Origin: Actinomycetes bacterium
GTDB lineage: Bacteria > Actinomycetota > Acidimicrobiia > Acidimicrobiales > SZUA-35
Length of the DNA: 60,051 nt
Direction: 5' to 3'
Assembly (NCBI GenBank): GCA_024280015.1
Contig: JAJRQY010000166.1
Location: 1 to 60,051, forward strand
The notes under the pieces are model-generated. The model did not search any database, had not been told where the DNA came from, and was given only the letters and a program-made list of their open reading frames with translations. Positions 51,562 to 54,757 of this stretch are shown one piece after another. The first letter of the stretch is position 1, and each line of letters starts with the position of its first letter. The position numbers and the translations under genes were made by a program.

Positions 51562-52992
51562 CTACTGGATAGCAAGCTCTTGGAGTGCGGCTGCGAGTCG
51601 TTCGACGCCAAGCTCAAGCGCGTCATGACCTACGGCGGCGTTGCTCAGACGAATCCTTGGACTATCCGAGGTGCCCGGGTACCAGGCGGCTCCGGCGACA
51701 ACAGAAACACCGTGGCGCAACGCTGCCTCTCGAACGACCTGGTCCGACACGGTGGTCCTGCCGTCGCGACCACTAACGTCAATCCAGAGATGGAGCGGAC
51801 TGGGTGTTGCCTCCTCGTTGGCTTGGACCAACGACAATCCTGGGACTTTTTGGACATGCGCTTGTAAGAATCGGCGGCGATCCAGCAGGGCCGAACGAAG
51901 CTTCCGAAGGTGACCAGGCCAGCGAGTCGACGTGACAACTCCGAGTGCGGTCTCTTGCAAGAGGGGTGAAACGAAGAAGTCTTCTGAGGCCCGAACCTGA
52001 TGAAGCCGGTTGGCAATGGCACCAACTGCGCCGATTGCGGCCACCCGAATACCGGGAGCGATGGACTTGGTCAGCGAACGGAGATGCACCACATGTCCAT
52101 CAGGATCAATGCTGGATAGCAATCCAGCGGACCAACCCGGCTCGGCGAGATCAGCCAGCCAGTCATCTTCAATAATGATGAGGTGATGTTTGTCGGCCAG
52201 TTCAACCAGCCGCTGGCGGCGCTTAACCGACAAGGTGGCCCCGGTCGGATTCTGAAAACGCGGCTGCACGTAGATCACGCGCGCTCCGCTCTGGCCGATT
52301 GTCTCCTCCAACTGATCCATGTCAATGCCCTCGCCGTCGACGGCCACCGGTACCGGAGTCAAGCCTGCCGCTCTGGCCGACACCAGTGCCCCGGCGTAGG
52401 TTGGCGACTCCATGAGGATCACGTCTCCGGGCAGACAAAGGGCACGAAAGATGAGCGACAGCGCCGCCTGACCACCGGGCATGATCAAGACACGGTGGCG
52501 ACGTTCGGGATCAATCTGCTCCTCGAACCATTCTCGAAGCGGGCCGAGTCCCTCGCTGGCCGAACGACCGAATGTTCCCGGGCGTCTGGCCGCTTCGCGA
52601 ACCGAGGCCGCAATCAGAGCAGTTGGCTGGAGGGTCGAATCGGGATAGCCGCTGGCCAGATCAATCACTCCCACCGGAACCAGGCCAACAAGAGGGTCCA
52701 ACACGCTCCTCTCCGAGACGTCTGATCCAAGGGCCAAGGTTTGCCATGCGGTATCTGCCGGGGTAGCAACCCGCTGGGTTGATTTGGGGGCAATGAAGGT
52801 TCCGCTACCGGGGATGGTCTCGATCTTGTCCAGGCGTACCAATTCGCTCACGGCTTGTCGGATGGTGGCTGGCCCGACCCCGAGCTCGGACATGAGGTGG
52901 CGAACCGAAGGGAGTCGGCCACCGACCTTGCCACCTTCAATCAGGGACTCCAGATGGATCCGAACCCGATTTGAAGCGCTATCATGAATCAT
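51562..52992 (-). CDS. MocR/PdxR-type GntR regulator with aminotransferase domain
   Basis: 476 aa from ATG 52992. A GntR winged helix (1-75: LPSVRHLMSELGVGPATIRQAVSEL) is joined to a class I aminotransferase-like domain with NPTGATLSVKRRQRLVELA, IIIEDDWLADL and the PLP-lysine region LTKSIAPGIRVA. MocR proteins use PLP or amine ligands to control metabolism or transport. The longer frame to 53355 is antisense of the transporter. Its ATG overlaps the transporter's ATG in a CATG, and direct repeats flank the pair, so it probably regulates itself and the transporter. Confidence 0.9.
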   Translation of the reverse strand: MIHDSASNRVRIHLESLIEGGKVGGRLPSVRHLMSELGVGPATIRQAVSELVRLDKIETIPGSGTFIAPKSTQRVATPADTAWQTLALGSDVSERSVLDPLVGLVPVGVIDLASGYPDSTLQPTALIAASVREAARRPGTFGRSASEGLGPLREWFEEQIDPERRHRVLIMPGGQAALSLIFRALCLPGDVILMESPTYAGALVSARAAGLTPVPVAVDGEGIDMDQLEETIGQSGARVIYVQPRFQNPTGATLSVKRRQRLVELADKHHLIIIEDDWLADLAEPGWSAGLLSSIDPDGHVVHLRSLTKSIAPGIRVAAIGAVGAIANRLHQVRASEDFFVSPLLQETALGVVTSTRWPGHLRKLRSALLDRRRFLQAHVQKVPGLSLVQANEEATPSPLHLWIDVSGRDGRTTVSDQVVREAALRHGVSVVAGAAWYPGTSDSPRIRLSNAAVGHDALELGVERLAAALQELAIQ

Positions 52993-53015
52993 GAGAGAAC
53001 ACAGTAGCGCTATCA
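52975..53015. promoter_or_regulatory. Candidate MocR operator with two divergent -10 boxes
   Basis: AGCGCTATCA occurs at 52975-52984 and again, perfectly, at 53006-53015, a 31-bp period (about three helical turns). Between them lie the overlapping start codons (CATG, 52990-52993). TATCAT (52980-52985) is a -10 box 5 nt before the plus-strand ATG; TACTGT (53006-53001, minus) is a -10 box 8 nt before the minus-strand ATG. Confidence 0.6.
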
Positions 53016-53893
53016 GCACTAGTCGAGAAACGCTTGGTCTAGTTCTTGGCTTCGGAGCAGTCCTGGCGTTCAGCCTCACCCTGCCAGCTACCAAGGCAGC
53101 AGTACCGGTCTTTGGCGGCTGGACCATCGGCATTGGCCGAGCCGTCATCGCTGCTTCGCTGGCCATTGTTCTGCTCGTGGTAAAGAAGGTTGAACTTCCC
53201 GATCGCCGATTCTTGGGGCCACTGGCCCTGATCGCCTTCGGCGTGGTCTTCGGATTCCCCATCCTCACGGCCCTGGCCTTGGAACATGTTCCAGCAACCC
53301 GTGGTGCCATTGTTGTCGGCCTCCTGCCAGCGACGACTGCCTTGGTCGCCACCATTCGTCACGGTGAGCGGCCGAGCCGAGGATTCTGGTTCGCAGCGGG
53401 TGGAGGCTTGCTGACCGTGGTGGCCTTCGCCTTTCTCAGCGGGAGCCGAGGCAAGCCCGAACCGGCCGACCTATTGCTCGGTCTTGCCATCATCGCCGCC
53501 GCCATTGGCTATGCCGAAGGGGCCGAGGTGTCCAAGTCAATCGGCAGCTGGCAGACCATCTGCTTTGCTCTGGTGCTCTCATTGCCAATTACCATTCCGG
53601 GCGCGGCGATTGCTGTCTGGAAGCATGGAGTAGTCGAGCCAACTACCTCAGCGATCGCCGGGCTGGCCTATGTATCGGTCATCAGCATGTTCCTCGGCTT
53701 CTTTGCCTGGTACGCCGCCCTAACCTTGGGCGGCGTGGCCCGGGTCAGCCAGATACAGCTCTTGCAGCCAGTACTCACTCTGGGTTGGGCCTGGCTCCTG
53801 CTTGGTGAGCGTGTTACCGCAGGCGCCATTCTGGCGGCAGAAGCAGTGGCTGGCTTTGTCTGGTTGTCGCGGCGAGCTGCGATTGCTCGCTAA
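52991..53893 (+). CDS. EamA/DMT family transporter
   Basis: 300 aa with ten hydrophobic helices in two EamA halves (LGLVLGFGAVLAFSLTLPATKAAVPVFGGW... and ...PTTSAIAGLAYVSVISMFLGFFAWYAALTLGG). VLPATTALVATI-like and LLLGERVTAGAILAAEAV segments at the ends of the halves are typical. It probably exports an amino acid or related metabolite. It is divergent from the MocR gene and likely its target. Confidence 0.9.
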   Translation: MREHSSAISTSRETLGLVLGFGAVLAFSLTLPATKAAVPVFGGWTIGIGRAVIAASLAIVLLVVKKVELPDRRFLGPLALIAFGVVFGFPILTALALEHVPATRGAIVVGLLPATTALVATIRHGERPSRGFWFAAGGGLLTVVAFAFLSGSRGKPEPADLLLGLAIIAAAIGYAEGAEVSKSIGSWQTICFALVLSLPITIPGAAIAVWKHGVVEPTTSAIAGLAYVSVISMFLGFFAWYAALTLGGVARVSQIQLLQPVLTLGWAWLLLGERVTAGAILAAEAVAGFVWLSRRAAIAR

Positions 53894-54334: not shown

Positions 54335-54757
54335 CTAGTTGCTAACCATGGACGCAAGCTCGGTGGCATGAGCAACCCAACGCTCAACCTCAGATTCTGA
54401 GGGTGCCCGGCGAACAATGCTCCGGCGTGTCGTCTTGATTGCTTGCCGATTGACTTCGGCCATCTTCTCCGCCAGGTTTGCCGGCTTCCGACTGCGCAGG
54501 TCAATAATGGTTTCAACCCCACACGCTTCCAGCAAGTCGCTGTATTCAGACCCAATGCCACGCACTCGCATGAGGTCCACGCGCTTCACCCAGCCAAGAA
54601 TGAGCTGTTCATTGATACCGGTCTCTGACGCCACCGAACGGCGTCCGAGCTTGGCACCACACCGTTTCAGCAATGCAGTTGGAGTCTTGATTGAAACGTC
54701 TCGGAGCTTGCTATGAGTATCTGGGCAGATTCCTTCAATCGTCTCCAAAGATACCAA
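54335..54757 (-). CDS. DUF4332 protein
   Basis: 140 aa of tandem helix-hairpin-helix-like units: ETIEGICPDTHSKLRDVSIKTPTALL, ETGINEQLILGWVKRVDLMRVRGIGSEYSDLLEACGVETIIDL and a closing VERWVAHATEL. This matches DUF4332, where such domains are presumed to bind nucleic acid or partners. In the usual family sequence the first turn reads GIGP; here it is GICP. The frame opens with TTG at 54757. Confidence 0.8.
   Translation of the reverse strand: MVSLETIEGICPDTHSKLRDVSIKTPTALLKRCGAKLGRRSVASETGINEQLILGWVKRVDLMRVRGIGSEYSDLLEACGVETIIDLRSRKPANLAEKMAEVNRQAIKTTRRSIVRRAPSESEVERWVAHATELASMVSN

Follow-up and report, generated by a model that had tools for sequence, protein, structure and literature searches.

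Regulators of the MocR family bind direct repeats placed two or three helical turns apart, and operators with two direct boxes and one inverted box are the commonest kind, making up 32% of regulons (family survey, PMC5320631, section 9). In the sections of that survey drawn on here, GabR, TauR and PdxR combine a winged helix-turn-helix with an aminotransferase-like domain, and have a divergent neighbour, direct boxes and often one inverted box. The PdxQ regulons tie a MocR protein to DMT transporters, PLP-dependent aminotransferases and a CsdA-family desulfurase, and the passages on them mention neither an embedded operator nor a shared start (PMC5320631). EnuR, a MocR/GabR repressor of ectoine catabolism, has two predicted operators that overlap the core promoter on a 48-bp fragment, but its suggested consensus is the inverted repeat ATTGTn6ACAAT, and the excerpts of its description make no mention of shared start codons (PMC8739950). 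In the YczR/YczE divergons, common in Actinobacteria, a MocR gene is divergent to that of a membrane protein and inverted and direct repeats occur, although the intergenic regions of actinobacteria measure 27-274 bp, the motif is GGCCA/TGGCC and the membrane family is DUF161 (PMC4944035, in excerpt). A TANNNT element about 12 bp before the start is taken, in parts of two studies, as the mark of leaderless actinobacterial genes, and the known examples there are single promoters (PMC3160421, PMC3848588).

The locus studied here resembles GabR, TauR and PdxR in its domains, divergent neighbour and boxes, and resembles the PdxQ regulons in the kinds of partner gene found beside it and its relatives. 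It differs in lacking any intergenic region: both coding regions contain boxes, the start tetranucleotide is shared, two TANNNT promoters oppose each other over one CATG, and repression of both genes is favoured. The features within the window (the whole 60,051-nucleotide stretch of DNA that was analysed) are as follows.

51562..52992, minus strand: mocR, 476 amino acids; GntR-type winged helix and class-I aminotransferase-like domain (by Pfam).
52975..52984, plus strand: box A, AGCGCTATCA, with the core GCTATC at 52978-52983, inside mocR codons 4-6.
52980..52985, plus strand: eamA -10 element, TATCAT (TANNNT), ending 5 nt before the ATG.
52990..52993, no strand: CATG with both start codons, read directly; the sharing is kept in 54/58 loci.
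52991..53893, plus strand: eamA, 300 amino acids; DMT/EamA-type permease (PF00892, E 9e-27).
53001..53006, minus strand: mocR -10 element, TACTGT (TANNNT), ending 8 nt before the ATG.
53003..53015, no strand: box B, near-palindrome AGTAGCGCTATC in eamA codons 5-8, containing the second AGCGCTATCA (53006-53015).
53024..53036, no strand: box C, half-site opposite in orientation to box A, in eamA codons 12-15, near the place expected for a mocR -35.

Direct reading bore out the layout of the original prediction, in which mocR and eamA begin in one CATG, with a TAnnnT box 5-8 nt before each ATG and an exact repeat 31 bp apart: the two ATGs start at 52992 (minus) and 52991 (plus), the boxes lie at 5 nt (TATCAT) and 8 nt (TACTGT), and both copies of the repeat are present. 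For eamA, there is an in-frame stop two codons upstream of the ATG and no other ATG, GTG or TTG in codons 2-20; mocR likewise has no alternative start in codons 2-20, and has several in-frame starts upstream, the nearest a GTG nine codons away. The mocR product has the N-terminal GntR winged helix (PF00392, E 4.4e-11, residues 10-67) fused to a fold-type-I aminotransferase-like domain (PF00155, E 8.3e-29, residues 153-466) that defines the MocR family, both matches exceeding the Pfam cut-off. Its K309, in SLTKS, is invariant across a four-sequence alignment, and may be the counterpart of the PLP-binding Lys312 of GabR. Against NCBIfam, the protein scored below the cut-offs for PdxR (NF052282; 210.1 bits, cut-off 320), YczR (NF052290; 167.7, 487.4), EhuR/EnuR (NF052286; 156.2, 480) and GabR (NF052285; 54.4, 600), and all six named MocR types among the best 25 of 64 matches stayed below their cut-offs. 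Past the end of eamA, the window also encodes a small DUF4332 protein (54335-54757, minus strand; PF14229, E 5.7e-32) unrelated to the operator.

The 4.8-Mb genome has a single AGCGCTATCA pair at 31-bp spacing (backwards control, 0). By itself, the repeat is unremarkable within the window and proves little, because 17 exact direct repeats of at least 10 nt at 10-60 bp are present there (order-1 Markov mean 3.4, largest 9, in 100 sequences); it is conservation, and not the repeat, that carries weight.

We searched 99 genomes for MocR, including the window's own. A scan of genome contigs with the single MocR protein gave no match. Beyond the genome of origin, the best protein matches were in G001 (63% identity), G004 (53-54%) and G003 (44%), and mocR is patchy in the window's family, since only 4/39 genomes contain a close orthologue (738-838 bits; next best 182). 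G001 and G004 retain AGCGCTATC-type boxes at 31-bp spacing as well as the CATG, while the spacer and neighbouring codons differ. The G003 locus has diverged: GTTATC is repeated at 31 bp, a GTG stands at the expected eamA start, and there is no mocR ATG at that place.

A profile of four MocR proteins then yielded 60 loci in named genomes, chosen by protein similarity and not by their junction. Adding the window gave 61, from which we left out two without an anchor (L036 and L063) and a presumed duplicate (L088, of L087), leaving 58. A CATG shared between mocR and a divergent ORF of at least 200 amino acids was identified in 54/58 loci, window included. These 54 contain the window and the G001 and G004 loci (L032, L033), all represented in the profile, so that 51/54 lie outside it, and 42/54 are under 75% mutual identity by a crude ungapped count over the first 140 residues of MocR. 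Four loci without a long partner ORF at the CATG were excluded: L048, which starts with GTG and lacks a partner at that place; L060 and L077, whose partner ORFs measure 103 and 105 amino acids; and L056, also below the anchor threshold. In L056 (Catenulispora, about 2932) the spacing between boxes A and B is one base shorter and an aminotransferase partner is readable only in another frame; it is either a sequence error or a decaying copy. Among the loci left out, L063 (Chloroflexi) has GATAGC after the mocR start, separate mocR and eamA starts, and a purine-rich GAGGCGG preceding mocR. L087 and L088 are apparently the same 3441-base contig, assigned once to a Gemmatimonadetes bin and once to an Acidimicrobiia bin, and its gene content suggests Acidimicrobiia.

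The weight matrix that placed the start codons included the scored columns; the 54 anchors agreed with the tblastn start in 34 cases, were one codon off in 10 and lay further upstream in 10. In-frame upstream start codons were available for mocR in 43/54 loci and for the partner in 46/54, and other starts were present within codons 2-20 of mocR in 31/54 and of the partner in 13/54. The ORF criterion alone is unselective, as a long divergent ORF was found at another in-frame CATG in 4/10 plasmid loci; a long divergent ORF at some CATG is thus not rare, and the argument rests on the conserved register, the open frame alone being insufficient. Free variation of the repeat between strains would have refuted the original prediction; in the relatives the repeat, its 31-bp register and the CATG are conserved. 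The shared-start layout is not the feature of a single locus but recurs in many actinobacteria.

With columns numbered from the A of the mocR ATG as 0 and read on the mocR strand, the conserved positions of the 54 loci include T-14, A-13 and T-9 of the mocR -10 element, and A7, T11 and A12, which form the TANNNT of the partner. The core of box A occupies columns 11-14 as TA[AG]C in 52/54 loci, and TA[AG]C additionally occurs at -20, 31 bp from it, in 39/54. Box B is conserved on both flanks as a near-palindrome. We additionally identified a third, inverted box (box C) in the eamA coding region, which was absent from the original prediction and is weak in the window, although its columns -40 (C) and -39 (G) carry 1.42 and 1.95 bits among 42 representatives. 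Boxes A and B are direct and 31 bp, or about three helical turns, apart, and C is inverted and farther out. Relative to the partner start, the cores lie at about -13 to -8 (A), +13 to +24 (B) and +36 to +41 (C). Box A overlaps the partner -10 and box B the mocR -10; each -10 sits in the first codons of the opposite gene, and the two promoters overlap almost wholly, taking the -35 element and polymerase at their generally known positions. Spaced direct boxes, often with an inverted one, beside the regulator's own gene are what is expected of a MocR operator, and at the sequence level they are present here.

The boxes also vary together. A TAAC variant of box A is present in 8/54 loci; these have T at -38 in box C in 8/8 cases (versus 5/46 of the others) and T at -15 in box B in 6/8 (versus 0/46). 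This joint change supports a single reader of all three boxes; it may represent one event, because all eight TAAC rows fall within one clade of the MocR tree.

TANNNT was found at -11 of the partner in 54/54 loci and at -14 of mocR in 48/54, and at any other offset from -20 to -6 in never more than 6/54. Sequences resembling Shine-Dalgarno 4-mers precede mocR in 2/54 loci and the partner in 5/54, and are commoner (29.6%) in random 17-mers of the same loci. The junction thus has, at the sequence level, the TANNNT some 10-14 nt before the start and the lack of a Shine-Dalgarno that distinguish leaderless genes, and its first T, at -11 and -14, resembles that of the leaderless genes described in the cited parts of PMC3160421 and PMC3848588. 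That both transcripts are leaderless, probably starting at or a few nucleotides from the ATG, is well supported by these offsets and by the rarity of SD-like 4-mers; the leaderless mRNAs originally predicted are therefore retained as leaderless or nearly so.

We identified a constraint on the codons of both genes that appears to act on the DNA. The middle base of mocR codon 3 is A in 54/54 loci, the residue being D, N, E, H or Q, and that of partner codon 4 is A in 51/54, the residue being H, E, K, Q, D, N or Y; each of these bases corresponds to the final T in the -10 of the opposite gene. Compared with synonymous usage in codons 21 onward of both genes, third-base T is greatly enriched in mocR codons 4 (54/54, 6.8 expected; box A) and 6 (40/54, 3.0 expected) and in partner codons 5 (51/54, 5.2 expected) and 7 (52/54, 2.4 expected; box B), as is third-base A in partner codon 13 (49/54, 11.2 expected), while the middle base of partner codon 14 is C in 54/54 (box C); these counts are non-independent, as the sequences are related and the matrix that placed the starts included these columns. 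Partners of different Pfam families keep the same constrained positions. The partners thus share codons that their genes otherwise avoid, indicating a constraint on DNA.

As a second test, the pattern TAGCNNTANNNTN6TCATGN4ANNNTAGC, derived from the 54 loci, was searched in 396 genomes of the phylum, of which 15 matched (backwards control, 0). All 15 matches (14 and the window) are heads of MocR and EamA genes that share a CATG. Ten of the 14 new matches come from group g113, in which 10/11 genomes match and the MocR is 75-87% identical to that of L050; in the other four, MocR is 52-57% identical to the nearest row of the earlier set.

Relatives were also present in 22 plasmid records, ten of which we examined. 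The CATG is shared with a long partner ORF in 7/10 and not in 3/10. Among the annotated records, the mocR start is placed at the CATG in 6/8 (L130-L133, L135, L136), and both starts in only 2/8, Arthrobacter sp. U41 and a Microbacterium, where they overlap by two bases. Outside the actinobacteria, a shared-CATG junction with an MFS partner was identified on plasmids of Mesorhizobium (L129, 1735) and Rhizobium (L130, 1738). In both, the partner -10 is TATCTA and not TANNNT, the annotated partner starts lie off the CATG, and a SidA/IucD/PvdA-family monooxygenase adjoins the MFS partner. On Rhodococcus and Prescottella plasmids (L131, L135; about 1647-1733), the CATG is kept and the partner frame stops after 28-29 codons; the annotated BenE start lies about 80 bases farther out, leaving a short leading ORF with an operator-type peptide. 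In a Microbacterium record (L136, 211-1739, minus strand), an annotated FMN-binding negative transcriptional regulator follows the DMT partner with a one-base overlap, and the two perhaps form an operon.

The partner itself is not constant. By BLAST, the 54 partners comprise 28 EamA proteins, 23 relatives of the L053 protein and three matching neither. The partners at six loci (the window, L039, L053, L057, L079 and L086) were checked against Pfam, which assigned L053 to Aminotran_5 (class-V aminotransferase), L079 to MFS_1 and L086 to BenE, with no match for L057. The remaining names rest on BLAST; MFS and BenE partners occur at one locus each among the 54. The Nesterenkonia partner without a match (L057, 2271-3005, minus strand) opens like EamA (MRPHDTAIA...), gives no Pfam match over 245 residues, and seems interrupted. 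A tree of MocR was built by quick search from 58 rows trimmed of their first 12 residues (17 open forks, midpoint root); its rows include none under 350 amino acids except L035, and 6/14 of the new pattern loci, and the L057, L079 and L086 labels were set by hand. Four partner labels need three changes on this tree, the minimum for four labels, and the partner family thus appears to have changed at least three times. The aminotransferase group, with the MFS row within it, nests among EamA rows, and the midpoint root leaves the direction of change undefined.

We interpret the junction as part of a compact two-gene cassette, in which MocR, acting on boxes A and B (and C), represses itself and its partner, and the two promoters are leaderless and mutually exclusive; we give this reading a probability of about 0.64. 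From the conserved boxes we infer that MocR binds A to C. A MocR dimer would occupy A and B from the same side of the helix and touch C as well; both -10 elements would then be covered and both promoters blocked, giving autorepression together with repression of the partner. A PLP-reactive amine, or a change in PLP, would loosen MocR and free both promoters; amine-triggered release is carried over by analogy from EnuR and GabR, as presented in the portion of PMC8739950 used here. A plausible guess for the signal is PLP or an amino compound, because the DMT, desulfurase-like aminotransferase and BenE partners resemble those of PLP-related MocR regulons. With both promoters in the same 60-80 bp, and each -10 inside the other gene, a polymerase bound at one should keep the other free of polymerase, and free cassettes would alternate between regulator and partner. 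Repression of both genes is favoured because all boxes are at or downstream of the partner -10. Of the original prediction that a MocR-type operator is embedded in both coding regions and that one dimer could block or activate both promoters, the conserved boxes support the putative embedded operator, and the block fits the geometry; activation of eamA is unlikely, with boxes at or after its -10.

The same operator could instead serve a MocR that represses its own gene and activates its partner, as GabR and PdxR do, and in the text cited from the family survey such autorepression with divergent activation is frequent among described MocR divergons (PMC5320631). We consider this unlikely for the present junction, where box A sits on the partner -10 and boxes B and C lie about 13-41 bp past its start. 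None of the boxes lies at a place from which, as a general rule, activators contact polymerase. Boxes A and B both adjoin a -10 in like manner, as they would if they were an extended promoter motif, of GCTA type around TANNNT and read by sigma, and not a MocR site. This is improbable, as box C lacks a TANNNT, conservation of box B extends to both sides of its near-palindrome, the three boxes change together (though in one clade only), and the junction pattern, tested as a whole, was found only beside this MocR in the 396 genomes.

The prevalence of certain residues (Ser in partner codon 6 in 47/54 loci, Ala in codon 7 in 49/54, and Ser in MocR codon 5 in 44/54) might point to the protein, with an N-terminal peptide needed by both products conserving the bases. 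We reject this explanation, to which we give very little credence, on the grounds of the unlike partner families and the codon bias: the same positions recur in partners of different Pfam families (with Ser-Gly in the lone BenE partner), third bases are fixed at synonymous sites contrary to codon usage, and mocR codon 3 and partner codon 4 keep only their middle base while the residue varies. A chance repeat with a chance overlap of starts at one locus would be in keeping with the 17 comparable repeats in the window, and the repeat alone is not significant; conservation (54/58 homologous loci, and 15 pattern matches versus 0 in controls) nevertheless leads us to dismiss it as scarcely credible.

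Beyond the repressed, mutually exclusive cassette itself, we tentatively suggest, at somewhat under even odds, that it is old and transferable. Within its 60-80 bp, an operator and two exclusive leaderless promoters would coincide with coding sequence of both strands, an arrangement that has persisted through much of Actinomycetota and is also present on two rhizobial plasmids. On several occasions a new partner would have been fused in frame to the first 16 or so codons, which the operator specifies, so that unlike proteins would now begin with one operator-written peptide. MocR operators with spaced direct and inverted boxes are already known, and what seems new is the arrangement with a shared CATG, embedded in coding sequence and changing its partner. 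Among the matches listed from the open-access literature, supplementary tables aside, none describes a MocR operator over shared start codons, as far as their accessible text goes; the motif itself may already be in the survey, beyond the sections cited (PMC5320631), or in RegPrecise.

If this interpretation is true, the junction is an extreme case of information packing, in which a single stretch combines an operator with two promoters and the coding of two N-termini, and regulatory DNA would dictate amino acids of unlike protein families. It would offer a minimal natural system for testing mutual exclusion of polymerases by overlapping leaderless promoters. Such sites would escape operator searches that skip coding sequence, and the pattern allows start codons, and the link between MocR and its partner, to be predicted in many actinobacterial genomes.
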